From: Thermodesulfobacteriota bacterium
Lineage (GTDB): Bacteria > Desulfobacterota_D > UBA1144 > Nemesobacterales > CSP1-2
Length of the DNA: 64,000 bases
Reading direction: 5' to 3'
Assembly (NCBI GenBank): GCA_035559815.1
Contig: DATMAT010000010.1
Location: forward strand, 1 to 64,000
The notes below the pieces were generated by a model. It worked only from the letters and a program-made list of their open reading frames with translations. It did not search any database and was not told the DNA's origin. The position numbers and the translations under genes are program-made. This document shows positions 12,667 to 58,119 of this stretch, piece after piece. Position 1 is the stretch's first letter, and every line of letters begins with the position of its first letter.

Positions 12667-13656
12667 TTATATTAAACCAATCAACTGAAAGAGCAATCCA
12701 GCTACGATAGCACATACCGGGAGGGTAAAAATCCAGGCTAATATGATATCCCTAGCGATTCCCCACCTAACCGCAGAAAATCTTATGGAAGAGCCTACGC
12801 CCATTATCGAGGATGCAATCACGTGTGTCGTGCTCACCGGCATTCCCAGTGATGCGGCCCCTAGAAGCACGATCGATGCCGAAGTCTCCGCGGCAAAGCC
12901 GTGAATGGGCTTCAGTTTCAGGAGGTTGACTCCAAGGGTTCTTATCACCTTCCACCCGCCTAAAGCGGTTCCCAGAGCCATCACCGTGGCACATGCGGTT
13001 ATTACCCAGAATGGCACCTCTATCTTATCGAGAAAACCCCCGCTCACCAGGGCTATAGTTATCACTCCCATAACCTTTTGTGCATCGTTAGTGCCGTGGC
13101 TTAACGCCATGAATCCGGCAGAAACCAACTGGAGCTTTCCGAAATATCTATTGATCTTGTATGGAGAGGAGCGGTGGAAAAGCCAGGTAAGACAATACAT
13201 CAAGAAAGCCCCCACCAAAAAACCGAGGACAGGAGAGATAATAAGAGCAAGGAGTATTTTGAAGACACCGTCAAGTTTAAGTGCCGCAAAACCTTTTGCT
13301 GAGACGGTAGCCCCGATGATCCCGCCGATCAACGAATGAGATGCGCTGATCGGAAGCCCCAGCCTAGTCATAAGCGCCGTCCACCCGGCAGCAGTGATCA
13401 TGGCAGTTAAAACTGCGGTTTGAGTGATGGTAGCGGGGTCGGTGATATCACCGCCTATTGTTTTTGCCACCCTGGTGCTCAAGTATGCACCTAAAAAGTT
13501 CAAAACCGCGGCGAACATCACCGCTTGAAAGGGGGAAAGAACCCTCGTCGATACCACCGTGGCAATTGCATTAGCCGAGTCGTTCCAACCGTTTGTGAAG
13601 TCAAATAAAAGGGCGACTGCTACAACCAATGCAGTCAATAAAAGCACATCAGGCAT
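12667..13656 (-). CDS. pit: PiT-family inorganic phosphate transporter
   Basis: 329 residues from ATG 13656, with about 9-10 membrane segments. The duplicated PiT signature is present: FDFTNGWNDSANAIATVVSTRVL near the N-terminus and GFMALSHGTNDAQKVMGVI in the middle, both with the G-x-NDA-type phosphate/cation motif. It imports phosphate (as metal phosphate or with a cation) across the inner membrane with low affinity. Its start overlaps the stop of the DUF47 gene by eight bases, so translation is probably coupled. A high-affinity Pst system is found at 53.6-58.0 kb. Confidence 0.93.
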   Translation of the reverse strand: MPDVLLLTALVVAVALLFDFTNGWNDSANAIATVVSTRVLSPFQAVMFAAVLNFLGAYLSTRVAKTIGGDITDPATITQTAVLTAMITAAGWTALMTRLGLPISASHSLIGGIIGATVSAKGFAALKLDGVFKILLALIISPVLGFLVGAFLMYCLTWLFHRSSPYKINRYFGKLQLVSAGFMALSHGTNDAQKVMGVITIALVSGGFLDKIEVPFWVITACATVMALGTALGGWKVIRTLGVNLLKLKPIHGFAAETSASIVLLGAASLGMPVSTTHVIASSIMGVGSSIRFSAVRWGIARDIILAWIFTLPVCAIVAGLLFQLIGLI

Positions 13657-14272
13657 GCTCAAGCACTATTCCTTCCAGTATGTTTGCCACATCTTCGCAG
13701 ATGTCTATGGCATCTTCGAGCGTCTCGTAGATATCCTTCCATTTGATTATCTCTATAGGTTCGGAGGTTGAATTAAATAAAATTGATAGCGCATTCCTGA
13801 AGGTTCTATCCCCCTCGTTTTCGAGCCGGTTGATTTCTATACAGATGTCCAGGATGGTGCGGGGGTTTTTTATATTCCGTAGTTCGCCCACTCCTTTTGC
13901 CACCTGTGCTATAGCCCTCTCTAGTATGCCAATTAAAGCCAAAGCTTCCGGTGTAGAGCTCTTTATCTTGTAGAGGAAAACCCTCTCACAGGCAGAATCG
14001 ATCAGATCAAGAATATCGTCTAGCCTGGTTATAAGGTTGTAAATGGACTCGCGGTCGATAGGAGTGACAAACGTGGTGTGTAATTTGGACACGGTCTCAT
14101 GGGTTATATGATCCGCTTCGTGCTCAACGTCTTTTATAGCCCTGGCCTTTTCTTCGGCATGAGATAAATCCTGCATCATATTTTTAAAAAGCCCTACTCC
14201 ATTCACTATCTTTTCCGATGCCTGGTCGAAATAGTCGAAGAACTTCTCCTCTTTTGGGAAAAATCTAACCAT
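13649..14272 (-). CDS. DUF47 (PhoU-like) Pit accessory protein
   Basis: 207 residues, all helical. VRFFPKEEKFFDYFDQASEKIVNGVGLFKNM, EHEADHITHETVSKLHTTFVTPIDREDI-like (here DRESIYNLITRLDDILDLID) and the C-terminal LENEGDRTFRNAL ... WKDIYETLEDAIDICEDVANILEGI are the DUF47 signature. These proteins are distant PhoU relatives, encoded next to Pit transporters and thought to govern their activity. Coupled overlap with the transporter gene supports this role. Confidence 0.92.
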   Translation of the reverse strand: MVRFFPKEEKFFDYFDQASEKIVNGVGLFKNMMQDLSHAEEKARAIKDVEHEADHITHETVSKLHTTFVTPIDRESIYNLITRLDDILDLIDSACERVFLYKIKSSTPEALALIGILERAIAQVAKGVGELRNIKNPRTILDICIEINRLENEGDRTFRNALSILFNSTSEPIEIIKWKDIYETLEDAIDICEDVANILEGIVLEHA

Positions 14273-42238: not shown

Positions 42239-43312
42239 TTAATACAGATTAATGGACTGATCCCGCTCTACTATAGTTTCCTTTCTCCGTAAAGTGTGGG
42301 AAAGAGTTTGTCCACGAAATTTATTACTCTCCGCTATCTCTAAGACAGACTCAATTATCGTAGGCAAGTTATTTTTATAATCGGCATAATAAATAAAAGA
42401 AGAACCAACCCATTCTTTTAAAACCTTATCGAAATCCTTTCCCAGCTTTTTTACGACGGGAATACCCAGTCTTCTCAAAGCCTCGGCGTTGCAGTGCTGT
42501 TCGTATTGTCCCTTCATCGGCACTATCATCAGTTTCTTCCCTAAATAAAGGGCCTCGGCCGGGGTGTCAAACCCCCCGCCGCACAAAAGGCCTTCACAGG
42601 TGGTCATGCTCTTGACGAACTCCTCATTACTCACCGGAAATACCTTCACATTATCCTCGCTGTAGGGCAAGCCTCTATGATGCTTAGAGAATATCTCCCA
42701 TTTTACCCTGACCTTCTTCAAGAACCTCATCAAGTAATTGGCATCGTATGCCGGGAGATAGACAGAATAATGGCCGTTATTCTTCACATCCGCGTTTCTT
42801 ATTTCATCCCTAATAACCGGCGTGTGAATAAACGTGTCATACCTGTCGAAATGAAAGCCGATGGGAACCCTGCACGGGGCATACCACCTCATAATGAATT
42901 CCACAAAGTAGTTCTTCCTTTTCGGTCTTGGCGTCTTTGGGGAAAGGAAAGAGGCGTGATGAGATAGCGACAAGCTGGGAACCCCTTTCGTCTTTGATGC
43001 CCAGGCAGTGATGGGCTCGAAGTCGCTTATGACTAAATCATATTTTTCCACGGGCAGATTGGATATGTCCGATATGAATTTGCTGAACCTGGCGTTTTTT
43101 ACAGAATTCCAGTAATCTATCCCCCCGCGCTTCCCAAACACATAACCGAGGCCGCTCAAGTTATATTTGACGTCAAAGCCTACGTCTACTTCGTGCTGAC
43201 TTTCGCTGACCAGTATATCCACGTCTGCATGCTTGACCAGATGCCTTATCACTTCTTTGGAGCGGCTTATGTGTCCGTTACCGGTCCCCTGTATCCCGAA
43301 TAAAATCTTCAT
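42239..43312 (-). CDS. MJ1255/VC2487-type glycosyltransferase
   Basis: 357 residues. GT-B fold pattern: KILFGIQGTGNGHISRSKEVIRHL at the N-terminus (the GNGH loop), VISDFEPITAWASK, LSLSHHASFL, and the C-domain donor site LLCGGGFDTPAEALYLGKKLMIVPMKGQYEQHCNAEALRRLG (about 243-284). This is the MJ1255/VC2487 family, related to the MurG/diacylglycerol glucosyltransferase superfamily. It is the second gene after a metallophosphoesterase (nine-base gap). I infer a glycolipid synthase acting on diacylglycerol made by the phosphoesterase. The promoter region shared with olsBA carries phased Pho-like repeats. The family's measured activities are few, so the substrate is open. Confidence 0.88.
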   Translation of the reverse strand: MKILFGIQGTGNGHISRSKEVIRHLVKHADVDILVSESQHEVDVGFDVKYNLSGLGYVFGKRGGIDYWNSVKNARFSKFISDISNLPVEKYDLVISDFEPITAWASKTKGVPSLSLSHHASFLSPKTPRPKRKNYFVEFIMRWYAPCRVPIGFHFDRYDTFIHTPVIRDEIRNADVKNNGHYSVYLPAYDANYLMRFLKKVRVKWEIFSKHHRGLPYSEDNVKVFPVSNEEFVKSMTTCEGLLCGGGFDTPAEALYLGKKLMIVPMKGQYEQHCNAEALRRLGIPVVKKLGKDFDKVLKEWVGSSFIYYADYKNNLPTIIESVLEIAESNKFRGQTLSHTLRRKETIVERDQSINLY

Positions 43313-43321
43313 GTATATCTC

Positions 43322-43999
43322 CTATTCCAGTACGTGTAGTCGAACACACTGTCCGTCTATTGATACGTAGCTGGCCGGTCTGTCGGTCCAACAACCGGTA
43401 TTGTAGTAATGGATGTCGTCAACCCGCATGGACATAGCCTGATGCGTGTGGCCGCAAAAAACATAGCTGACCCCTTTGGCCAAGGCATAGTGTATGGCGT
43501 CATGGGCGACCTTCTTCGATAAACGAAGCAAAGTGGTAGAATGCCTCTGGAGAAACCGGCTCAGGATAAACCTGTTCGTATCTATTCTCTCTATCAACCG
43601 ATGAAAGAAGCATGCCAGGCTGGTGATTTTACCGTTGTTTGTCACGAAATCATCGAACTGATGCCCGTGCATGGCCAGATATCTTTTTCCGTTGTAGTCC
43701 CAAGTGTACTCCCGGCATGCTCGGATACCGAGAAGATAAGGAACGACGTGGACGAGCCCTTGGTCGTGATTTCCCTCTATCCATACCACTTCTTTCTGTG
43801 AGGCTATGTGTTTAACGTAAGAAAGAAAATTCCAGTGGATTTTGTTCAGCCTGTTAAGATTGAGGTTATCAAAAATATCACCGAGAAGAATCAACCTCTC
43901 GTAAGTCCAAGAGTCAAGGACCTTTATCAGCTCGGGAACCCGGCTGAGCTCAGAGCCTAGGTGGATGTCAGAAACGATAATGGTATTAGCCGAAGACAT
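43322..43999 (-). CDS. calcineurin-like phosphoesterase, PlcP/LpxH-like
   Basis: 225 residues. Two-metal site complete: SDIHLGS (Asp11, His13), GDIFDN (Asp41), GNHDQG (Asn77, His78), HGHQFDD (His111, His113), CGHTHQA (His184, His186). The end YYNTGCWTDRPASYVSIDG resembles the PlcP phospholipase C group, which is commonly annotated as UDP-2,3-diacylglucosamine pyrophosphatase (LpxH). PlcP releases diacylglycerol from phospholipids during phosphate shortage. First gene of an operon with a glycosyltransferase and divergent from olsBA; this context favours PlcP over LpxH. It has no signal peptide, so it acts on the cytoplasmic face. Confidence 0.85.
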   Translation of the reverse strand: MSSANTIIVSDIHLGSELSRVPELIKVLDSWTYERLILLGDIFDNLNLNRLNKIHWNFLSYVKHIASQKEVVWIEGNHDQGLVHVVPYLLGIRACREYTWDYNGKRYLAMHGHQFDDFVTNNGKITSLACFFHRLIERIDTNRFILSRFLQRHSTTLLRLSKKVAHDAIHYALAKGVSYVFCGHTHQAMSMRVDDIHYYNTGCWTDRPASYVSIDGQCVRLHVLE

Positions 44000-44103
44000 T
44001 TGCCCTTTCAGATTTAAAGACCAGATGTGAAAGTTTACCAGTTTGGTTAGCCATATATATCAATGAAATCACTTATATCTAATATATATGATTGTATCGA
44101 TAT

Positions 44104-44142
44104 ATTATACCAGTATTAAAGATCTATTAAGAACAAATTAAG
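44104..44142 (-). promoter_or_regulatory. Pho-box-like array I with -10 (phosphoesterase operon)
   Basis: On the minus strand three units CTTAATT, CTTAATA, TTTAATA lie exactly 11 bases apart (TTAA cores at + coordinates 44116, 44127, 44138). TATAAT follows at 44109-44104. The pattern PyTTAA with an 11-base step is the form of the Pho box known from cyanobacteria and, more loosely, other phyla, and matches the pstS array at 58092. Confidence 0.5.
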
Positions 44143-44169
44143 AAATATAGAGACGACCCATTCAAAAAC

Positions 44170-44198
44170 GTTAAACGAGAATTAATAAACCTTTAATA
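44170..44198 (+). promoter_or_regulatory. Pho-box-like array II (olsBA side), weaker
   Basis: TTAAAC (44171), TTAATA (44182) and TTAATA (44193) on the plus strand are 11 bases apart and in register with array I (33 bases away). The region is AT-rich and the flanking letters are less conserved, so this is suggestive only. Confidence 0.35.
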
Positions 44199-44254
44199 AT
44201 AACTGAACAATCGTCCCTTAATCTTCCATACATATAAATCAAGGAGATCAAGGT

Positions 44255-45115
44255 ATGATTGCAGAAAAAGTCGTACACCTAAGAAACACCGTCGCCAGCT
44301 CGAACGTGCTTTTAAAGGCATATCTATGGAAGCTCAGGTACTTCAAGCCCAAGGTCTCATTTTCACTTGACACCAGCAGATTCGTGATAAAGACAGTGGA
44401 AAACGGCTGCGAACTGGAAAAAGCCTTAAACCTGAGATACGAGGTGTTTTATGAAGAGCTTCTCAACAGGAAGGCCTTTCTAAACATAGACGTCGATAAA
44501 TTCGACCCCATATGCGACCATCTGGTCATATTGGACAAAAGGTCGGAAAGGGCGGTCGGCACATACAGGCTTATTTCATCCACCTACTCCAACCGCTTTT
44601 ACTCCGAGACAGAATTCCTGATCCAGAACCTGAAGAGTGCCCCGGGCAACAAACTCGAGCTGGGGAGGGCCTGCGTCCACAGGGATTACCGGAACGGGAT
44701 TACCCTGGCTCTTCTGTGGAAGGGCATATCCGAGTATATGAGGAGAATTGACGCCAGGTACCTATTCGGTTGTTCCAGTATAAACACTACTAACATCGTG
44801 GAGATAAGCCTCATATACCGGTATCTGAAGGAGCATCATCTTTCTTCCGACGATTTCCGGGTATATCCCCGGGAGAGACACATAATAAAACAGATAAACC
44901 AGCACTTGCAGACGTTCGACCGCTTCGAAATAAAAACGGAAACGATTGAAGAGCTGATACCGCCCCTCCTAAAGAGCTATATAAAGGCTGGAGCCAAGGT
45001 CTGTGGGGAGCCCGCCTTAGACCGGAAGTTCAAATGTGCAGATTTTTTGACCGTCCTGGACATCGAGCTACTGAACGACTCCTATGAAAAAAGGTATAGG
45101 ACTGCAAATGGCTAG
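44255..45115 (+). CDS. olsB: OlsB-like lyso-ornithine lipid N-acyltransferase
   Basis: 286 residues, AAGGAG ribosome site. A GNAT-fold acyltransferase of the OlsB/autoinducer-synthase-like group: ALNLRYEVFYEELLNRKAF, DKFDPICDHLVILDKRSERAVGTYRLISS, and LELGRACVHRDYRNGITLALLWKGISEYMRRIDARYLFGCSSI. OlsB adds a 3-hydroxy fatty acid to ornithine. The next gene encodes an OlsA-like O-acyltransferase overlapping by eight bases, which is the classical olsBA order. Ornithine lipids contain no phosphorus and are often made in phosphate shortage, fitting the Pho-like sites and neighbours. Confidence 0.88.
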   Translation: MIAEKVVHLRNTVASSNVLLKAYLWKLRYFKPKVSFSLDTSRFVIKTVENGCELEKALNLRYEVFYEELLNRKAFLNIDVDKFDPICDHLVILDKRSERAVGTYRLISSTYSNRFYSETEFLIQNLKSAPGNKLELGRACVHRDYRNGITLALLWKGISEYMRRIDARYLFGCSSINTTNIVEISLIYRYLKEHHLSSDDFRVYPRERHIIKQINQHLQTFDRFEIKTETIEELIPPLLKSYIKAGAKVCGEPALDRKFKCADFLTVLDIELLNDSYEKRYRTANG

Positions 45116-45878
45116 AAAATTAATAAAAATTTGCCTGCTTTCTCTCTTGGTCTCATTCTCCGTGCTGGTAGCCTCGTTAACCGACCTTTTCATACAAGAC
45201 AGAAAGAGAAAGCTGTTTTGCCTATCCCGGATTACTTCCCTATTTTCCAAAGCCCTACTCAAAATACTGGGGGTCAGGGTTTACGTGAAAAACCTCGAGA
45301 ATTCACTCAAAAGCAATAATAATCATTTCATCGTCTCCAACCACCTTTCCTACATCGATATCTTCGTGATATCGTCGGTAATCCCCTCCCTCTTTGTGGC
45401 CAGCATCGACCAGGTCAGGGACAGATTCTTACTGGGCACGATGGCCAAGCTCGGCGGGAGCATCTTCGTAGACAGAAGGAGCAGAGCCAAGCTCTCGGAA
45501 GAAATAGATAACATATCCGAGCTACTAAAGGATGGACTCAACGTCGTATTGTTCCCGGAAGGGACTACGTCTAACGGGGAATGTGTGCTCTCTTTCAAAG
45601 CCCCTTTCCTGACCCCGGCCATTAAAACCAAAAGAGACATACTCCCGATTTGTTTGAGATACCGGAGAATAAATGGTGAGGGCGTAAATTCTGATAACCG
45701 AGATTTTGTGTTCTATTACGGCAACATGGATTTTTTCGGGCACTTTGTGGAGCTTCTGTCGCTTAGGTCTATCGATGTCGAGCTTATCGGCCTCGAAAAC
45801 ATCAGGGTAGATTCCGGCGTTTCCAGAAAAGAAGTAACAAAATTAGCCTTTGATTTCATCAAACTGGCTTATCAGTGA
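45108..45878 (+). CDS. olsA: OlsA/PlsC-type O-acyltransferase
   Basis: 256 residues from ATG 45108, overlapping the olsB stop by eight bases and preceded by AGGACTGCAA; ATG 45084 is a longer option. One N-terminal membrane segment (about 6-26). Acyltransferase motif I NHLSYID (His79, Asp84, the HX4D pair), the SIFVDRR block (about 122-128) and motif III FPEGTTS (about 155-161). With OlsB it would make ornithine lipid: OlsA esterifies the 3-hydroxyl of lyso-ornithine lipid. It could also be a general lysophosphatidate acyltransferase, but context favours OlsA. Confidence 0.88.
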   Translation: MARKLIKICLLSLLVSFSVLVASLTDLFIQDRKRKLFCLSRITSLFSKALLKILGVRVYVKNLENSLKSNNNHFIVSNHLSYIDIFVISSVIPSLFVASIDQVRDRFLLGTMAKLGGSIFVDRRSRAKLSEEIDNISELLKDGLNVVLFPEGTTSNGECVLSFKAPFLTPAIKTKRDILPICLRYRRINGEGVNSDNRDFVFYYGNMDFFGHFVELLSLRSIDVELIGLENIRVDSGVSRKEVTKLAFDFIKLAYQ

Positions 45879-46614
45879 TATTAACCCAATCCCCGGGTCT
45901 CGGCTGATAAATACAAGGGGCTGATCACTTTGTCTCCGCTGTTGCTGATTGCTATAGGCGCATGGACTCCGCCCGCTGTCATTCCCACGGAAGTGGGAAT
46001 CCAGTTTTCAATTATGGATCCCCGATTAATGCACTCGGGGATGACATAAAGACTGGAGCCCAGATTAATCCTGTCCCCAAATGTTTTTATTGGGGAACAT
46101 TCGGAAATGACATGCGGAGGAAACCCCCGATTGATCCCCGGTTCAAACGGGGACTGGATGACTATAGAATGAAACTCAATTAATCAACCCAGTTTAACTA
46201 AGGCGGGATGTAGCTCAAATAATTTAGGGAAAAGAAAAACTATTTATATCTCTGTGCATTTTTACACACTTCTTACTGTGCATTTTTACACAATTTAATA
46301 TAATCATATCATTAAATCAATGCTTCTTCCCGATAAGTAGCGCCAACAGTTAAATATTTTAAAAATGGAAAATTAAAGGTATGGAGATTGCTTTTGCTCT
46401 TTAAAGGAGGTTTTGTGAGGAGATACGGACTTAATCCGACCTTGACAAGAACCTGAAAATTCTTCACAAAATAGAAATTACTAAGGTGAACCCACGATTG
46501 CTTGTTTGGTAATCGGTGATTTGAAGGTCTTATCGCGTTCCCTTGCCGTCAGAAAACTCATAAGTTATGATTAGCAATCCCCAGGAAACCAGCCGTTATC
46601 GAGGAGAGTCCCCG
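45879..46614. repeat. 736-base gene-free stretch: repeats and tandem operator-like sites
   Basis: 45978-46165 has the 'cattcccg' inverted family. 46254-46269 and 46278-46293 are two exact copies of TGTGCATTTTTACACA, 24 bases apart, each with TGTG/CACA ends (separate entry). GCGGGATGTAGCTCAA at 46204 looks like a tRNA 5' end but no tRNA follows. Confidence 0.6.
46254..46293 (+). promoter_or_regulatory. two identical 16-bp operator-like repeats
   Basis: TGTGCATTTTTACACA twice, starting 24 bases apart, with imperfect dyad symmetry (TGTG ... CACA). Looks like a tandem regulator site, about 320 bases before dapL. No regulator gene is adjacent. Confidence 0.45.
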
Positions 46615-47781
46615 ATGGAAATCAAATGGGCAAAGAGGATCGAACAGCTACCGCCATACCTTTTCGCCGAGATCGATGCAAAGAAACAGGAGATGAAAGC
46701 AAAGGGCGTTGACATCATTGACCTGGGGGTTGGAGACCCGGATATCCCAACTCCTTCCCACATTATTAATGCGTTGAAAGCGGCCGCTGAAGACCCGTCA
46801 AACCATAGATACCCTTCTTACGAAGGCATGCTGTCCTTCAGAAAATCGGCAGCAGACTGGTATGCGGAGCGCTTTGGGGTCAGGGTAGACCCCAAAACCG
46901 AGGTGGTCACTCTTATCGGGTCAAAAGAGGGAATTGCCCATACTCCCCTTGCCTTTGTCGACCCCGGTGACGTTGTCCTGATTCCTGACCCCGGGTATCC
47001 GGTTTATCCTGTCGCTACGAGCTTCGCCGGCGGCATCCCCTATTCCATGCCCCTAAGGAAGGAGAACGGTTTTCTCCCCGACCTCGGCTCTATCCCGGAA
47101 GACATCAGGAAAAAGGCCAAACTTATGTTCCTCAACTATCCCAATAACCCCACATCAGCGGTTACGGAAAGGGCTTTTTTCAGGGAGGTAATAGACTTCG
47201 CCTCAAAATATAACATTCTTGTCTGCCACGATGCGGCATACACCGAGGTCTCATTCGACGGCTTCAATCCGCCCAGCTTTCTGGAGTTGGACGGAGCAGA
47301 GGAAGTGGGGATGGAGTTCCACTCCCTTTCTAAAACCTTCAACATGACCGGATGGAGGCTCGGCTTCGCCGCCGGGAATAAGAAGGCTATCGCCGGGCTT
47401 GGAAAGGTAAAGACGAACATAGACTCCGGTGCCTTCCAGGCCATTCAACTCGCCGGTATCGAAGCCTTGAGGAACTATTCCCTGGGGATTCAGGAGAGAA
47501 AGAAGATTTATGAGGAGAGAAGGAATATATTCTGTAGAGGGCTCGATGAGATTGGATTGAGCTATCATCCACCCAAAGCGACCTTTTATGTTTGGTTTGA
47601 GACCCCCAAGGGAATCTCATCAAAGGATTTTACCGCCAGGCTCCTCAGCGAGGCCGGCATTGTGGTCACGCCTGGAAACGGATTCGGAGAATACGGAGAA
47701 GGATATATTCGCGTGTCGATCACCATCGGTAAAGAGAGGCTCGCCGAAGCGGTGGAGAGGCTCAAGAATTTAAGATTCTAA
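46615..47781 (+). CDS. dapL: LL-diaminopimelate aminotransferase
   Basis: 388 residues from ATG 46615, chosen by CGAGGAGAG eight bases before; the longer start at 46567 adds 16 residues. MEIKWAKRIEQLPPYLFAEIDAKKQEMKAKGVDIIDLGVGDPDIPTP is the DapL/class I aminotransferase start. GSKEGIAHTPLAF, PDPGYPVYP, LNYPNNPTSAV, CHDAAYTEVSFDG and the lysine motif HSLSKTFNMTGWRLGF are present. It converts tetrahydrodipicolinate to LL-diaminopimelate with glutamate in one step (lysine and peptidoglycan synthesis). Confidence 0.93.
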   Translation: MEIKWAKRIEQLPPYLFAEIDAKKQEMKAKGVDIIDLGVGDPDIPTPSHIINALKAAAEDPSNHRYPSYEGMLSFRKSAADWYAERFGVRVDPKTEVVTLIGSKEGIAHTPLAFVDPGDVVLIPDPGYPVYPVATSFAGGIPYSMPLRKENGFLPDLGSIPEDIRKKAKLMFLNYPNNPTSAVTERAFFREVIDFASKYNILVCHDAAYTEVSFDGFNPPSFLELDGAEEVGMEFHSLSKTFNMTGWRLGFAAGNKKAIAGLGKVKTNIDSGAFQAIQLAGIEALRNYSLGIQERKKIYEERRNIFCRGLDEIGLSYHPPKATFYVWFETPKGISSKDFTARLLSEAGIVVTPGNGFGEYGEGYIRVSITIGKERLAEAVERLKNLRF

Positions 47782-47819
47782 TAATAAACAAGAACCTGAG
47801 TTCGGACTGCCTAACTGCC

Positions 47820-49358
47820 TTGGAAAGCTTGACTGTAGTCGCCAAAGTAATCGTAACTTCGATATATGTGACCGCCCTTGCACTCCTGTGCGTGTTCGGG
47901 ATTCATAGGTATTATCTGGCTTATCTTTTCAATAAATACAAAAGACAGCCACCAAAGCCCCGGGAGAAATTTACAAATTTACCAACGGTTACCGTACAAC
48001 TCCCCATTTACAATGAGATGTACGTTGCAGAAAGGCTGATATCCTCGGTTTGCCGGATTAACTATCCGAAGGAACTCCTGGAAATCCAGGTGCTCGACGA
48101 CTCCACCGACCCGACCAGGGAAATTGCCCGAGAGTGTGTCGAAAACTACCGGTCCCTGGGCTTCGACATACACTACATCCACAGAGAAAACAGAGTCGGG
48201 TTTAAGGCGGGAGCTCTGGCCGAAGGCCTCGAGACCGCCCGCGGAGAGCTAATCGCCATATTCGATGCCGACTTTATTCCGCCGGAGGATTTCCTCACAA
48301 AAACGGTAGATTACTTCACTGACCCCCGGGTGGGCATGGTTCAGGTGAGATGGGGACACGTAAATCTCGATTACTCCCCGCTCACTAAGGCCCAGTCCAT
48401 TCTCCTCGACGGACACTTCGTCATAGAGCAGGCCTCCAGATTTCATGCGGGCAGGTTTTTTAACTTCAATGGAACCGCAGGCGTTTTGAGAAGATCGTGC
48501 ATCGAATCATCCGGGGGCTGGCAGCATGACACGCTTACCGAAGACCTGGACCTCAGTTACCGGGCGCAACTAAAGGGATGGAAGTTCGTTTACCTGAAGG
48601 ATTGGGCGGTTGATGCGGAACTGCCGGTTGACATGAATGCCTTTAAATCACAGCAGCACCGCTGGGCTAAGGGAGCAATACAAACGGCAATAAAGCTCCT
48701 GCCCCAAATTCTGAGAGCAAAAGAACTTCCCCTGAGCATAAAGGTCGAAGCCTGTTTTCACCTGCTCGGGAATTTTGCCTATGTTTTACTTTTGATCCTT
48801 CTCTCCCTGATGCTGCCAATATCCTATTTCTGGCACTCTTTCGGATGGGAGAAAGTGGTCTTTTTCAACCTATTCATCGTATCCGCCTGTACTCTGAGCG
48901 TTATAAGGTTCTATGTGCTCACCACTAGAGAGGTTCACGGCAAGGAATGGACCAAATACTTAAAATATGTACCCCTATCCATTGCCCTTGGAACCGGCAT
49001 CGCCATAAACAATTCAAAAGCGGTGTTTGAAGCCATCCTTGGTAAGAAGTCCGAATTTAAACGCACCCCCAAATTTGCCGTAACCTCCAAAGGCGACAAC
49101 TGGCGCACCAGAAGCTATACCTCTTCTAAAGAGATAACCAGCCTGATAGAACTGATAGTGGGTATTCTTTTCGTGCTCCAGACCGCCTACGGCGCTTTTA
49201 TCGGCTATGTCGGATGGATACCGTTCCTCCTGCTCATTCAATTCGGCTTCATATACACCGGGCTGCTCTCCATCATCCACGGCTCGCAAAGACAGTCGGC
49301 AAAAGTAAGTTCATTTATTTCCAAGCCGGTGCTCCAGAAGGAAATAAAGAATCTATAG
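47820..49358 (+). CDS. processive family 2 glycosyltransferase (CESA/CSL-like)
   Basis: 512 residues from TTG. N-terminal membrane segment, then a GT2 domain: PTVTVQLPIYNEMYVAERLISSV, VLDDSTD, IFDADF (about 154-159), TEDLDLSYRA and QQHRWAKG, so the D, DxD, TED and QxxRW motifs of processive synthases are all present. At least four C-terminal membrane segments follow. Close bacterial relatives make glycolipids or polysaccharide such as glucomannan-like chains. It starts 38 bases after dapL and is downstream of the lipid-remodelling genes. Product unknown. Confidence 0.9.
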   Translation: MESLTVVAKVIVTSIYVTALALLCVFGIHRYYLAYLFNKYKRQPPKPREKFTNLPTVTVQLPIYNEMYVAERLISSVCRINYPKELLEIQVLDDSTDPTREIARECVENYRSLGFDIHYIHRENRVGFKAGALAEGLETARGELIAIFDADFIPPEDFLTKTVDYFTDPRVGMVQVRWGHVNLDYSPLTKAQSILLDGHFVIEQASRFHAGRFFNFNGTAGVLRRSCIESSGGWQHDTLTEDLDLSYRAQLKGWKFVYLKDWAVDAELPVDMNAFKSQQHRWAKGAIQTAIKLLPQILRAKELPLSIKVEACFHLLGNFAYVLLLILLSLMLPISYFWHSFGWEKVVFFNLFIVSACTLSVIRFYVLTTREVHGKEWTKYLKYVPLSIALGTGIAINNSKAVFEAILGKKSEFKRTPKFAVTSKGDNWRTRSYTSSKEITSLIELIVGILFVLQTAYGAFIGYVGWIPFLLLIQFGFIYTGLLSIIHGSQRQSAKVSSFISKPVLQKEIKNL

Positions 49359-49832
49359 TAAACTTGAGAATTCCCTGATTTACCACAGGATTTCCGCTGT
49401 CGAGGCGATGTAGTCCCTCGACTTCCTCGGCGGGGATCTCCTCTTCATGTCATGCCCGTCCCTCGGTTGAACCTGGGGATCAGTCGGGCATCTATAATTA
49501 AATACTGGATTCCCGCTCCCCGCTTGCGCGAGGACATGTTTCACGGGAATGACTGGTTACAGAGACTCAGAAGGGCTTTTAGGGTAAAAACAAAATAGTG
49601 GAAGTAAGGATTATAAAAGTAAAGCGTAATCACCATCCAATCCAGGCATTGCTACGTAATGAATTGACAAGTTTGATAACAATTGATTTAAATTGTCCGA
49701 CAATAGCACAAATGGAATGTGATGCAGTTCCTTTTGACCTTTCCGTAGGGGCGACCCGGCGGGTCGCCCCTACATTTTCATCAAGAATTAGCAGGCTCCA
49801 TACCACTCCACACGAGCGTTAAAAAAAGGCAC
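49359..49832. repeat. gene-free stretch with several repeat families
   Basis: 49359-49380 is copy 4 of the Shine-Dalgarno-bearing repeat, inverted. About 49405-49560 is a 'cattcccg' element. 49745-49773 is a hairpin with 13-base arms (GTAGGGGCGACCC and complement, GGC loop). No gene supported. Confidence 0.6.
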
Positions 49833-49882
49833 TTGACAAACCGTATAATATATACTACATTGGTGACTGACTAGTCAGTTCA
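49833..49882 (+). promoter_or_regulatory. tetR promoter and palindromic operator
   Basis: TTGACA (49833-49838), 17 nt, TACATT (49856-49861). Directly after it lies TGACTGACTAGTCAGTTCA (49864-49882), with the perfect palindrome CTGACTAGTCAG at 49867-49878, a typical TetR-family operator placed to block its own promoter. A TATAAT at 49844 has no matching -35. Confidence 0.65.
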
Positions 49883-49897
49883 CCGGGGTATAGCAAT

Positions 49898-50587
49898 ATG
49901 GCAAAAGCAAAAGAAGCAATAGGGAAAAGGCTGGCAAGGGTTAATTTCCGCAGTAAGAGAACCGGCCGGAGGGATGAGATTATACATACTGCCGCCCAGT
50001 TGTTCTCCGAAAAAAGCTATCATGACGTAACTATGGATGAGATAGCGGAGAAGGTAGGCGTTGCCAAGGGCACCATCTATCTTTACTTTGAGTCTAAGGA
50101 AAAGCTGTACTTAGAAATTCTGGAAGAAGGGTTTGAATCCATCGAGTCCCTGATCGAAAAAGAGGTAGAAAAGGGCGAGTCCGCTCCGCAGAAGATGAAA
50201 AAGGTCTTAAAGCTTATTTTTTCCTTCTATCGCCAAAACCTGGACGTGCTTCGCATCCTGAGCCGGGATGAAACCCATCTCATTCGAGAGCACTTTGAGT
50301 TCACCGAACACTGGAGACACAGAAGGGTGAAGCTTTACAAAAAAATCCTGGAGAAGGGCGTCAAGGAGGGCTCCTTCCGTCCAATAAACACGGAGCTTAC
50401 GTCATTAATAATCTTCGGCCTGGTAAGGTCGGTGATGTTTTTCTACGAGACGGATAAGAGCGCCGAGGAAACGGCCGATGAGGTATTTTCGGTAATTGAA
50501 AAAGGGATTCTGGCCCCGGCCGAAAAGAAATTACATACACAAGAAAAAACGGAAAAGGATCAACAAGCGACGGATGATGGGGATTAA
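49898..50587 (+). CDS. TetR-family transcriptional regulator
   Basis: 229 residues. RRDEIIHTAAQLFSEKSYHDVTMDEIAEKVGVAKGTIYLYFESKEKLYLEILEEG (about 24-78) is a textbook TetR HTH domain. The C-terminal ligand domain (about 85-210) is helical with the TetR_C pattern of fatty-acid or envelope regulators. It ends in a charged tail. Its operator (49864-49882) suggests autorepression. The aminotransferase starts 31 bases downstream and is probably in the same transcript. Confidence 0.93.
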   Translation: MAKAKEAIGKRLARVNFRSKRTGRRDEIIHTAAQLFSEKSYHDVTMDEIAEKVGVAKGTIYLYFESKEKLYLEILEEGFESIESLIEKEVEKGESAPQKMKKVLKLIFSFYRQNLDVLRILSRDETHLIREHFEFTEHWRHRRVKLYKKILEKGVKEGSFRPINTELTSLIIFGLVRSVMFFYETDKSAEETADEVFSVIEKGILAPAEKKLHTQEKTEKDQQATDDGD

Positions 50588-53595: not shown

Positions 53596-54264
53596 TTAAG
53601 AAATCCCCTCTTCCATGGCATGATGCTTTAAGACCTTGCCGCTGGCTATATAAAACGTATCTTCGGCTATGTTCGTTGTCAGGTCTGCAACCCTTTCCAG
53701 GTCTCTTGCTAAAAGAATGAGATAAATAGCACGGTCGATAACCGTCGGGTCTGCTATCATGTAGGTGATAAGCTCCCTTATAACCTGGGTTTCAAGTAAA
53801 TCCACTTCATCGTCTTTTTTACAGACCTGGACCGCCAGCTCCTCATTCTTATTCACGAAGGAATCCAGGCTTTCCCTAAGCATCTCCATTGCTTTTTCTG
53901 CCATTTTCGGTATATCGATGAGCGGTTTCACAGGGGGTTTATCGGCCAGGTAAATGGCCTTCTCAGATATGTTGACTGCGTGGTCGCCTATTCTCTCCAG
54001 GTCATTGTTTATTTTCATAATCATGGTAACAGTCCTTAAATCCTCGGCCTCGGGATGGAACAGTGCCAATATCTTTATACAGAGGTTATCTATCTCGATT
54101 TCCATCTTGTTTATCTTATCGTCGCTTTTTATTACCTCTTCGGCGAGAATCATATTTTTTTCTTTGAGTGCCTTTATGCTTTTAGCTATCATCTCTTCTA
54201 CAGAAGTAGCCATTTCCAGGAGCAGCTTTTTTAAATTAGTTATTTCCTCTTGTAGCCTTTTCAT
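53596..54264 (-). CDS. phoU: phosphate uptake regulator PhoU
   Basis: 222 residues, two three-helix PhoU bundles. The metal-binding motifs NNDLERIGDHAVNISEKA (about 87-104) and ARDLERVADLTTNIAEDTF (about 189-207) are complete. PhoU links the Pst transporter to the PhoR-PhoB signalling pair and lowers uptake when phosphate is plentiful. Last gene of the pst operon. No phoB or phoR is in the window. Confidence 0.95.
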   Translation of the reverse strand: MKRLQEEITNLKKLLLEMATSVEEMIAKSIKALKEKNMILAEEVIKSDDKINKMEIEIDNLCIKILALFHPEAEDLRTVTMIMKINNDLERIGDHAVNISEKAIYLADKPPVKPLIDIPKMAEKAMEMLRESLDSFVNKNEELAVQVCKKDDEVDLLETQVIRELITYMIADPTVIDRAIYLILLARDLERVADLTTNIAEDTFYIASGKVLKHHAMEEGIS

Positions 54265-54321
54265 GATGTGTTCCTTTTTCTCAAGTATTAATCAGTTATC
54301 GATATTTTTTCCAAACTCACC

Positions 54322-55194
54322 TCAACCGAACCGTCCACTTACATAGTCCTCGGTGAGTTTATTCTTGGGATTTGTAAATATAGTTTCCGTAATGTCGAAT
54401 TCAACCAGCTCGCCAAGATGCATAAATGCAGTGTAATCAGCTATTCTTGCTGCCTGCTGCATATTATGTGTAACTATAACTATTGTGGTGTATTTTTTGA
54501 GTTCTATGGATAGCTCCTCAATCTTTGCGGTAGAAACGGGATCGAGTGCGGATGTTGGCTCATCGAAAAGAAGCACCTCTGGGTCAACTGCGATTGCACG
54601 GGCAATGCAAAGCCTTTGTTGCTGACCACCGGAAAGCGAATAAGCATTTTCTTTTAATCTGTCTTTAACTTCGTCCCAGAGTGCTGAGGCTTTGAGCGCC
54701 CATTCCACTTTTTCATTCAAAACCCTTTTGTCTTTCATTCCCTTAATTCTCAATCCGTAGGCAACATTCTCGTATATAGATTTCGGAAATGGGTTCGGTT
54801 TTTGGAAAACCATTCCTACTTTCATTCTTATTAAAATAGGATCAATACTTGTATCAATTATGTTAATTCCTTCGGGATGGAGTAATATTTCACCCCGGTA
54901 ACCATTACCAGAATAAAGGTCATGCATCCTGTTGAGACAGCGGAGAAAGGTGGTCTTTCCGCAGCCAGAAGCACCTATTAATGCAGTGATTTGATTTATG
55001 GCAATTTTAACATTTACATTTTTTAAAGCCTGGACGTCTCCATAGTAGAAATCAAGGTTCTTCACTTCGACTTTAACATTCTTAGGTTCAGTATTAAGCA
55101 TTATCTCATCTTTTTTGAGCTTATCATCTTCCTCACTTTCCGGCAATGCTCCATTATCCTCTAATAATACTTCTGTGGCCTTGCTTACTACCAT
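54322..55194 (-). CDS. pstB: phosphate ABC transporter ATPase PstB
   Basis: 290 residues. Walker [10 protein letters not shown] (74-82), Q-loop [12 protein letters not shown], signature [14 protein letters not shown] and Walker [14 protein letters not shown], followed by the PstB-typical [13 protein letters not shown]. About 35 residues longer at the N-terminus than E. coli PstB, an acidic extension ([13 protein letters not shown]-like, about 10-32) with no known role. Its start overlaps the pstA stop by seven bases. Confidence 0.97.
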
Positions 55195-56129
55195 TTTATA
55201 CTCCTCCTTACTCGATAGCGAATGTATATGGCTAGGCTGCTCAAGATTAGGGTTAACATTATGAGAACTAAACCGGCGGCAGCGGCATTTTCGTGAAACC
55301 CTTTCTGAGGTCTCGAAACCCAGTTAAACATCTGTATAGGTAATACTGTGAAGGGAGTTTTTATCATTTCAATAAAGGATTCAAAAGAGAAGAATGGGAA
55401 TTCAGCCTTAACGGGAGAAGGCGGAAGAAAAGCTATAAATGTTAAAGCCCCGATAGTTATCAGAGGCGCTGTCTCTCCTATGGCTCTTGATGCGGCAATT
55501 AATACCCCAGTCAAGATTCCACCAATTGAATATGGAATGATATGGTCTCTCACCGTTTCCCATTTTGTAGCACCCACCGAATACGCCGCTTCTCTGACGG
55601 ATAATGGGATCCTTCTTATAGATTCTCTGGTGGCTACCACTATAATAGGGAGCATCAAAAGGGCTAGTGTAAGTCCCCCTGTAAGTATGCTTGTTCCAAA
55701 ATCAAACCTATAAACGAAAAGCCCAAGTGCTAGGAGCCCATATATTATCGAGGGAACGGCCGCCAAATTATATATATTTATCTCTATGGCATTTGCTATC
55801 CAATTTTTAGTTGCGTATTCCTCTAGGTATACCCCTGCTGGAATTCCCAATAAGACCGACCAGAAAACTGCCCCAAGCATCACGTAAATTGTTCCAACCC
55901 ATGCCGACAGTATGCCGGCTTTTTCCGGAAATCTCGACGGATATGAAGTAAGAAAATCTGGACTTAACCTACGATAACCATCTAAAAAGAGGTCCAGAAT
56001 TATGGCAAAAAGAAAAGTCATAAGCAGAAAGACCAGTATAATCCCCAGTATCCTGAATACTAAATCGGAGATTCGCATTTTTTTTATTATTACATCGGGA
56101 ACTTCTAATATTCCGATTTTTTCTTGCAA
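55188..56129 (-). CDS. pstA: phosphate ABC transporter permease PstA
   Basis: 313 residues, six or seven membrane segments. [64 protein letters not shown] (about 164-228) is the ATPase-contact (EAA) loop and PstA signature. It pairs with PstC; its first base follows pstC's last without a gap. Confidence 0.96.
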
Positions 56130-57026
56130 TTAGTAGACCTCCCTGATTTTTGACTTAAGCCAGAAGGCAATCAAATTAAATATCAACGTTATTACAAATA
56201 GAGTAAATCCGACGGCGAATATAGAGAGGTATTCTATTGTACCGTAAGGAAGGTCTCCTAAACTAATCTGGACAATGTAAGCGGTGATTGTTTCTATAGG
56301 CTCGAGTGGATTTAAGGTTAAATTGGGATAAATACCGGCGGCTATAGCAACGACCATAGTTTCTCCCAATGCCCTCGATATACCTAAGATAAAACCAGCC
56401 ATCACTCCAGAGATAGCTGCGGGCAGTACCACTTTGAATGCAGCGTTTAATCTAGAGTCTCCCAGAGCATACGCTGCTTCTCTCAGTTCCTTTGGTACAC
56501 CTCTCAAAGCATCCTCACCGAGTGAGGCCGTATATGGAAGGACCATAATTCCAATTACTATGCCCGGAGCCAGCGCGTTAAGTCCCTGAAGTCCAGGTAG
56601 GATCTTCTGAAGAAGAGGTGTCAGGAATAAAAGCGCAAAGTATCCATAAACAACTGTTGGAATAGCTGCCAGAAACTCCATTATCGGCTTTAAAATTTCT
56701 TTTACGGTATCAGAAACATATTCGCTTATGTATATGGCGATTAGCAAGCCTATAGGAACTGATACCAGCGTCGCAATACCTGCGGTAAGAAAAGTCCCCG
56801 CGATTAAAGGCAAAACTCCAAACTTTTTGATTGCAAAAACAGGAGTCCATTCAGTTCCTGTTAAAAATTCAAATAAACTGACTTCAGGGTATTGAAAGAA
56901 CTTGACTGTATCAGTCAAAAGAACGTAAACAATCCCTGCTGTAATAAATATGGTAAAAAAGGAGGCGGTAAACAAAAGTATCGTCACAAGTTTGTCTACC
57001 GCCTTTTTATAACTTATCTTGTTCAT
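56130..57026 (-). CDS. pstC: phosphate ABC transporter permease PstC
   Basis: 298 residues, six membrane segments. LREAAYALGDSRLNAAFKVVLPAAISGVMAGFILGISRALGETMVVAIAAG (about 183-233) is the EAA loop and PstC signature; FFQYPEVSLFEFLTGTEWTPVF near the N-terminus is also typical. It sits between pstS (23-base gap) and pstA. Confidence 0.96.
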   Translation of the reverse strand: MNKISYKKAVDKLVTILLFTASFFTIFITAGIVYVLLTDTVKFFQYPEVSLFEFLTGTEWTPVFAIKKFGVLPLIAGTFLTAGIATLVSVPIGLLIAIYISEYVSDTVKEILKPIMEFLAAIPTVVYGYFALLFLTPLLQKILPGLQGLNALAPGIVIGIMVLPYTASLGEDALRGVPKELREAAYALGDSRLNAAFKVVLPAAISGVMAGFILGISRALGETMVVAIAAGIYPNLTLNPLEPIETITAYIVQISLGDLPYGTIEYLSIFAVGFTLFVITLIFNLIAFWLKSKIREVY

Positions 57027-57049
57027 GTTCGTCCGTAGGGCCTATTTTA

Positions 57050-58048
57050 TTAATGCTTTACCATATCTTCTATCTTTACCCCAACCGTAGAACCACCCGC
57101 AAACGTAGTCCCCTTCTTCATACTTTTAAATTTCTGGAGGCCAAGCTTATATGCTTCGTCCGGAAGAGCAACATATCCTACGGAGGTACAGTAATCACTT
57201 GCATTACTCAAATATAGCTCAACAAACTCCTTTACCTCCGGTTTTTCCGCTGACTTGGCATTCACATAGATAAAGATTGGCCTCGAAAGCGGCTGATAGC
57301 TACCGTTAATAACGTTTTCGGCAGAAGGCAATACGCACTCACCGGTTGTAGGATTCTTAACTTTTATCAGTTTTGCTTTATCTTTGTTTTCAAAATAGTA
57401 GGCATAGGGGAAAAAGCACAAAGCATTATCCTGGCTGTTAACAAACTGCACTAGGACGTTATCATCCTCACTTGCGGTAAAGTCCCCTCTGCTAGAATGT
57501 TCTTTCCCAACTATCGCCTCAGTATAATAGTCATAAGTTCCGGAGTCAACTCCTGCTCCACACAGCCTTAAATCTTTATCCGGCCACTCAGGTCTTATCT
57601 GATTCCACCTGGTAATCTTACCCTGAGCTTCGGGCTCCCAGATCTTCTTGAGCTCTTCAACCGTCATACAATCAACCCAATTGTTATTAAGGTTAACCAG
57701 ATTTGCGAGGGCATCAAAGCAAACCGGAAGTTCAACGTATTCGATTCCTGCTTGTTGACATGCCTCGATCTCAGAGGTTTTAATGGGTCTTGAGGCATCA
57801 GAAATGTCAGTTTCCCCCCTACAGAACTTCTTAAATCCGCCACCTGTTCCGGAAATGCCAACAGTTATATTCACCTCGCCTCTTCTCATATTTTGAAAGT
57901 CCTCTGCGGCTCCTTCCGTAACCGGGTATACCGTGCTAGACCCGTCTACTTTTATTTCCTTCGTAGCCGCCCTAGCTACATCAGTTACATCCACTGCAAA
58001 AAAAAGTGAAACCATAAAACTTAGACCTAAAAGCAACTTTCTAATCAT
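57050..58048 (-). CDS. pstS: phosphate-binding protein PstS
   Basis: 332 residues. Signal peptide about 1-27 ([18 protein letters not shown]). [20 protein letters not shown] (about 33-52) and [26 protein letters not shown] (about 64-89) carry the Ser/Thr/Asp residues that bind phosphate. It delivers phosphate to PstC/PstA. First gene of pstSCAB-phoU; the CCTTT-GAGG ribosome site and the Pho-like repeats lie directly upstream. Confidence 0.95.
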
Positions 58049-58071: not shown

Positions 58072-58119
58072 TTAATAGGCTATAGGCTAAATGTTAAGAG
58101 AATGTTAAGAAGATGTTAA
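58072..58119 (-). promoter_or_regulatory. Pho box: three 11-base repeats upstream of pstS
   Basis: On the plus strand TGTTAA occurs at 58092, 58103 and 58114, exactly 11 bases apart; on the gene strand this reads TTTAACAT, CTTAACAT, CTTAACAT (downstream one last). A degenerate fourth (AGCTAA) lies in phase at 58125. TATTAA at 58077-58072 may be the -10. Direct repeats with an 11-base step are the hallmark of PhoB/PhoP sites. Confidence 0.7.

Follow-up and report, generated by a model that had tools for sequence, protein, structure and literature searches.

The window analysed here is a 64,000-nucleotide stretch (positions 1 to 64,000 of contig DATMAT010000010.1, assembly GCA_035559815.1) from a Thermodesulfobacteriota bacterium. 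Its positions 42239-45878 hold two divergent gene pairs that probably form a PhoB-controlled membrane-lipid remodelling locus, in which a route by a PlcP-like phosphoesterase (PE) and a glycosyltransferase (GT) is joined with the OlsB-OlsA (OlsBA) route. The sequence-only reading had proposed one phosphate-controlled (Pho) locus joining both routes, and this proposal is supported at the level of sequence by repeat arrays at phosphate genes and homologous loci, by the missing lipid A pathway of the genome, and by the pairing of GT with PlcP or PAP2 proteins. The four genes and their putative promoter elements are as follows.

42239-43312, minus strand: GT, an MJ1255/VC2487-type glycosyltransferase (PF13528), probably a diacylglycerol glycosyltransferase, from Pfam and TIGR matches and partners in relatives
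43322-43999, minus strand: PE, a two-metal phosphoesterase of a separate PlcP-like clade, predicted to be of phospholipase C type and to yield diacylglycerol (motifs DIHLG, GDIFD, GNHD, HGHQFD and GHTH)
44091-44096, minus strand: -10-like hexamer TACAAT in the PE-GT promoter, immediately past array A as read on this strand, a consensus match only
44105-44141, no strand: putative Pho-box array A (TTAT/TTAA/TTAA/TTAA, 11-bp step), nearest PE-GT, from the repeat pattern
44171-44207, no strand: putative Pho-box array B (TTAA/TTAA/TTAA/TGAA, 11-bp step), nearest olsBA, from the repeat pattern
44255-45115, plus strand: OlsB-type ornithine N-acyltransferase (PF13444), from family matches and homologues
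45084-45878, plus strand: OlsA-type lyso-ornithine-lipid O-acyltransferase (PF01553), overlapping olsB, from family matches

The open reading frames were confirmed at these coordinates, and they bear out the layout that had been described: PE and GT are 9 nt apart, the PE-GT pair is divergent from the olsB-olsA pair, and olsA overlaps olsB by 32 nt when counted from the first olsA ATG or by 8 nt with the in-frame ATG at 45108. The 255-bp intergenic region between PE and olsB (44000-44254) contains TTAA cores starting at 44116, 44127 and 44138 and at 44171, 44182 and 44193, that is, two perfect TTAA-N7-TTAA-N7-TTAA arrays, which are in register because they are 55 bp (5 × 11) apart. The scan of positions and steps thus agreed with the two in-register arrays already noticed in the sequence-only reading. 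In this region, only the 11-bp step produced TTAA triples; the remaining steps between 5 and 24 bp gave none. The exact three-unit pattern matched three times in the 64-kb window, compared to 0.02 expected; for the 255-bp region alone, the probability of at least one match was 0.00055, and at least two were seen in 0 of 20,000 Markov shuffles. An Rfam search of the divergent region gave no match. In addition, a -10-like hexamer was observed 8-11 nt past the last array unit in several promoters, including that of PE-GT and four PE promoters of relatives, and this spacing is the PhoB-type layout.

Relatives were searched for the same gene pairing. In a genome of another family (G012), the same PE-GT/olsBA arrangement with arrays was observed, with identities of 51% for PE, 59% for GT, 48% for OlsB and 38% for OlsA. 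In a third family (G020), olsA and GT are kept, olsB is gone, and a broken PE remnant lies between olsA and GT (L020:9780-10053); the locus has apparently been caught decaying there. G004 has PE-GT with an array and olsBA at another site, and in G008 a GT2-PAP2-Agt-type GT4 cluster, GT and olsBA all lie within 7 kb. In G047, of the same class, the order is ppk-PlcP-GT4(Agt)-olsB-olsA with its own TTAA array (ppk was named by inspection of the sequence). Loci that combine phosphoesterase, glycosyltransferase and olsBA genes therefore recur with different enzymes, and the arrangement is rare, not singular, because G012 and G047 also join PlcP or PE, a glycosyltransferase and olsBA. From the recurrence and decay across relatives we infer that the locus is a conserved unit, ancestral within this taxonomic order.

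For GT, the PF13528 score was 127.8 compared to a gathering score of 25, and the TIGR00661 score was 144.7 bits, below the cut-off of 195.9. The family occurs in 37 of the 58 genomes of the phylum (E <= 0.001), and GT is divergent from olsB in those f3 genomes that have olsB. GT is convergent with a PAP2 gene in G012, G020 and G011, the PAP2 gene of G011 carrying a perfect four-unit array, and PAP2 also adjoins GT in Aeromonas, G339, G108 and PE-less relatives. Outside the phylum, a canonical PlcP gene is overlapped by a GT gene of the same family in Parabacteroides and Aureibacter (Bacteroidota). Mainly because diacylglycerol can come from PlcP as well as from PAP2, it is predicted to be the acceptor of GT. 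These pairings suggest that the MJ1255/VC2487 family comprises unrecognised diacylglycerol glycosyltransferases, repeatedly coupled with PlcP, the PE clade and PAP2 across several phyla and replacing Agt here, a proposition that we regard as evenly poised.

Several observations weigh against assigning GT to lipid remodelling. The window GT has no homology to Agt: BLAST gave no similarity to PA3218, GT4 homology to PA3218 and its relatives is missing, and GT was rejected as an Agt homologue, an Agt-type GT4 being encoded elsewhere in the genome (contig C47). Among 18 GT regions sampled outside the phylum, no PlcP or PAP2 neighbour was detected in the remaining ones, which are the majority. Most genomes of genus g13, which are without PE and olsB, have no clear array at GT, and constant Pho control of GT was ruled out on this ground. 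In the open-access literature searched, no functional or lipid-synthesis study of MJ1255, VC2487 or the PF13528 family was found, in line with the earlier statement that this glycosyltransferase family is not usually linked to remodelling; VC2487 appears there solely as a Vibrio target to which the chitin regulator ChiS binds (PMC11856585). A single-sequence structure prediction of GT reached a pLDDT of 31, too low to use.

The PAP2 family includes undecaprenyl-pyrophosphate phosphatases, and the PAP2 partners of GT may act on undecaprenyl pyrophosphate instead. GT would then use polyprenyl phosphate or another acceptor, and only PE and OlsBA would remodel lipids. Such an acceptor would be consistent with the persistence of GT where PE or olsB is missing and no clear array is seen, and with the archaeal members of TIGR00661, whose lipids are not diacylglycerol. 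However, in two Bacteroidota genera the partner of a GT of this family is a canonical PlcP, an enzyme that releases diacylglycerol, and in the window PE and GT follow a single promoter that bears a Pho array; we consider this alternative rather unlikely.

The arrays were further searched for throughout the genome (3.97 Mb, 98.3% complete). The three-unit TTAA pattern had 12 placements, compared to 0 for the reversed control, and the four-unit form with up to two mismatches had 27, compared to 5 for the control. Sites were found at pstS, at phoH (C73), at this locus (two arrays) and at several unassigned genes. On contig C33 (49223-51661; L041), which encodes a PhoB-type regulator and a PhoR-type kinase, one array is located at a metallophosphoesterase gene adjoining the Porin_O_P gene and phoB-phoR (C33:49234), and a four-unit array lies within the phoB/Porin_O_P intergenic region (C33:51625); this region is a probable autoregulated Pho centre. 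Direct repeats with the 11-bp step are thus common to this locus and to the pst and phoBR promoters. Among the fetched loci, a strong array within 300 bp upstream was observed for 8 of the 9 PE/PlcP genes, compared to 14 of 319 unclassified genes (p = 9e-10, an optimistic value because the compared genomes are related). A GT2-PAP2-GT4 cluster on contig C47 (103483-105936; L042:14547-16936), whose GT4 is 35-41% identical to Agt-type enzymes, stands under a perfect four-unit array and is probably a second Pho-controlled glycolipid route in this genome.

The OmpR/PhoB family binds direct repeats of 7-bp motifs with 4-bp separation (PMC4832192), and the 11-bp TTAA step is therefore compatible with binding by this family. 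The same step, a 7-bp half-site plus a 4-bp spacer, is also found for PhoP of M. tuberculosis (PMC4832192), and some sites lie at genes without a known phosphate link (phasin-like, Sir2 and a P-type ATPase cluster), as would be the case if another OmpR/PhoB-family regulator bound the arrays and the locus answered a general envelope or stationary-phase signal. This possibility is improbable given that one genome has sites at pstS, at phoH, between phoB and the Porin_O_P gene and next to phoBR, and given the array at the classical PlcP gene of G047 beside ppk. The TTAA arrays are thus probable Pho boxes of this organism.

Further array sites were observed at other genes. A perfect four-unit array is located upstream of a weakly phasin-like gene (C10:77670-78240; L023:17671-18241), raising a possible link of storage granules to phosphate starvation. 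Arrays at L042:6272 and 11855 accompany small unassigned genes adjoining a P-type ATPase gene, and two related unknown proteins (L042:12054-12623 and L023:18440-19030) have a common CGDIGDFDF motif.

For PE, the Pfam match is a calcineurin-type phosphoesterase (Metallophos_2). A profile of the PE clade gave 71-117 bits for PlcP proteins compared to 25 bits for LpxH, and a PlcP profile gave 116 bits for PE compared to 60 bits for LpxH. The metal motif of PE is GNHD, as in PlcP, whereas that of LpxH is GNRD. In addition, PE has the sequence features of phosphate-starvation control and of a lipid-synthesis neighbour, namely the arrays and GT. Three observations argue against simply grouping PE with PlcP. 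In the tree, which was built without one out-of-frame Methylobacterium row, the PE clade is separate from both PlcP and LpxH (support 99/99); PE is only about 25-29% identical to PlcP; and approximately unbiased (AU) tests do not favour joining the PE clade to PlcP over joining it to LpxH (p = 0.108 and 0.117). The references included a record of S. meliloti (L045), adjoining an acyl-homoserine lactone synthase gene and a LuxR gene, which we take to be SMc00171 from synteny with the neighbourhood of that gene, and one (L046) that matches PA3219-PA3218 of P. aeruginosa. PMC8528852 treats PlcP and lipid remodelling in this species. PE falls outside the characterised PlcP clade of SMc00171 and PA3219, and its own clade ruled it out as an ordinary PlcP. 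Of the earlier description of PE as PlcP-like, the closeness to PlcP over LpxH in profiles and motif stands, and membership of the characterised clade does not. PE is accordingly read, by context, as predicted to work like PlcP without belonging to that clade. Within this phylum, members of the PE clade were seen in the window genome, in seven others, one of which holds PE as two contig-end pieces, and as the relic of G020; the only one seen outside it was in a single Terriglobia metagenome-assembled genome, in which a GT28/MGDG-synthase-like gene is about 3 kb from the phosphoesterase gene (L013:3108-8031).

Searches for the LpxC, LpxH (TIGR01854) and LpxI families gave no match in the 98.3%-complete genome, whereas the same searches were positive in control genomes. 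PE is therefore not an LpxH; it does not reach the TIGR01854 cut-off, and it was ruled out as such by the missing lipid A pathway. That PE is the cell's UDP-2,3-diacylglucosamine hydrolase (LpxH) and the locus serves lipid A and the outer membrane, not phosphate, is most improbable: LpxH structures are the best fold matches of the PE AlphaFold model and database annotators name PlcP relatives LpxH, but this alternative is largely refuted by the missing pathway, and the far better scores of PE against PlcP, its GNHD in place of GNRD, and the Pho-type arrays upstream also speak against it. The fold match to LpxH indicates the superfamily only, because the model (low-depth alignment) has a pLDDT of 73 and a poorly resolved cap region. 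Genes for a TonB-dependent receptor and for Porin_O_P are nevertheless present in this genome, and the organism apparently has an outer membrane without lipid A.

For the second gene pair, the best models were the OlsB equivalog (148 bits compared to a cut-off of 350) and the OlsA equivalog (128 bits compared to 300); both proteins thus fall below the curated cut-offs, and the gene order is that of an Acetyltransf_5 N-acyltransferase followed by a PlsC-like Acyltransferase. The headgroup is likely, not certain, to be ornithine because the best models were matched below these cut-offs. PhoBR control of olsB has been described in Acinetobacter (PMC11828411), phospholipids give way to ornithine lipids together with glycolipids when Desulfovibrio alaskensis is short of phosphate (PMC5193443), and both of these lipid classes rise in Methylosinus (PMC9239053).

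The locus was compared with known systems. PlcP-Agt pairs, and plcP adjoining other glycosyltransferase genes, have been described (PMC4796936, PMC9239053), and for other bacteria both PlcP-Agt remodelling and PhoBR-controlled OlsBA are established (PMC4796936, PMC9239053, PMC11828411). As in the PlcP-Agt operons of our comparison set (Sinorhizobium SMc00171, Pseudomonas PA3219-PA3218, Agrobacterium, SAR11 and Methylosinus), the glycosyltransferase gene comes immediately after one for a two-metal phosphoesterase of the LpxH-like superfamily, with phosphate-starvation control, here judged from the arrays, and a predicted swap of phospholipid for glycolipid. In contrast, the window PE belongs to a separate clade, its GT is of the MJ1255/VC2487 type and not a GT4 Agt, and one promoter region serves both this operon and olsBA. 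The same two acyltransferase families and a Pho-type box upstream of olsB are found in Acinetobacter (PMC11828411), whereas the window proteins lie below the curated cut-offs, their amino acid is uncertain, the olsB and olsA genes overlap, and the promoter region is common with PE-GT. The Bacteroidota pairs (Parabacteroides, L047; Aureibacter, L135/L137) likewise combine a phosphoesterase with the same GT family, in overlapping genes, the Aureibacter GT being 49% identical to the window GT over 290 residues; unlike in the window, the phosphoesterase is a canonical PlcP and no olsBA lies alongside, and no characterisation was present in the papers found. The G047 operon also brings both remodelling routes into one locus with a TTAA array, but with a canonical PlcP and an Agt-type GT4, co-directional with ppk and not divergent. 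LpxH resembles the window PE in fold and metal-site motifs, and differs from it in GNRD and in the lipid A pathway, which this genome lacks. PlcP-Agt and OlsBA remodelling are known, and the separate PE clade with an MJ1255/VC2487-type GT head-to-head with olsBA is best read as new.

At low phosphate, phosphorylated PhoB, whose gene adjoins phoR on C33, would bind the TTAA arrays and switch on both divergent operons. PE would cleave phospholipids to diacylglycerol and the phospho-headgroup, from which the phosphate would be recovered, and GT would add a sugar to the diacylglycerol to give a glycolipid. OlsB and OlsA would combine an amino acid with two acyl chains into a phosphorus-free ornithine-type lipid. 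We infer the PhoB binding, the substrate of PE, the acceptor and sugar of GT, the amino acid of OlsB and the phosphate response in this scheme.

Elsewhere in the window, two further phosphate features were assigned.

53596-58048, minus strand: pstS-C-A-B-phoU operon, a predicted co-regulated neighbour outside the locus (pstC, 56130-57026, assigned by position only)
58094-58119, no strand: TTAA array 45 bp upstream of pstS, a regulon marker from the repeat pattern

The pst operon is, as judged from its array, a co-regulated neighbour about 10 kb from the locus. A Pit phosphate transporter gene and a DUF47/PhoU-like gene (12667-14272) adjoin an MlaE permease gene; the array search found none at Pit, and Pit, with no array and about 30 kb distant, was ruled out as part of the locus. 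The earlier suggestion that the locus forms a new arrangement together with pst and pit was thus correct in that both are in the window and pstS has an array, whereas pit lies outside the unit and the arrangement recurs in G012 and G047. After olsBA, genes for an LL-diaminopimelate aminotransferase, a cellulose-synthase-like GT2 and a TetR protein follow (46567-50587), an order kept in several relatives, some of them without olsB and PE. A GmrSD-type restriction endonuclease gene (219-1691) lies in AT-rich sequence at the beginning of the window.

If these readings are true, the PE clade would be a third branch of the LpxH/PlcP enzyme group, and a widespread glycosyltransferase family without tested activity in the literature searched would gain a function. 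The TTAA code with its 11-bp step could be used to find the rest of the phosphate regulon of the phylum, and phosphate-driven membrane remodelling would be extended to a small uncultured phylum.

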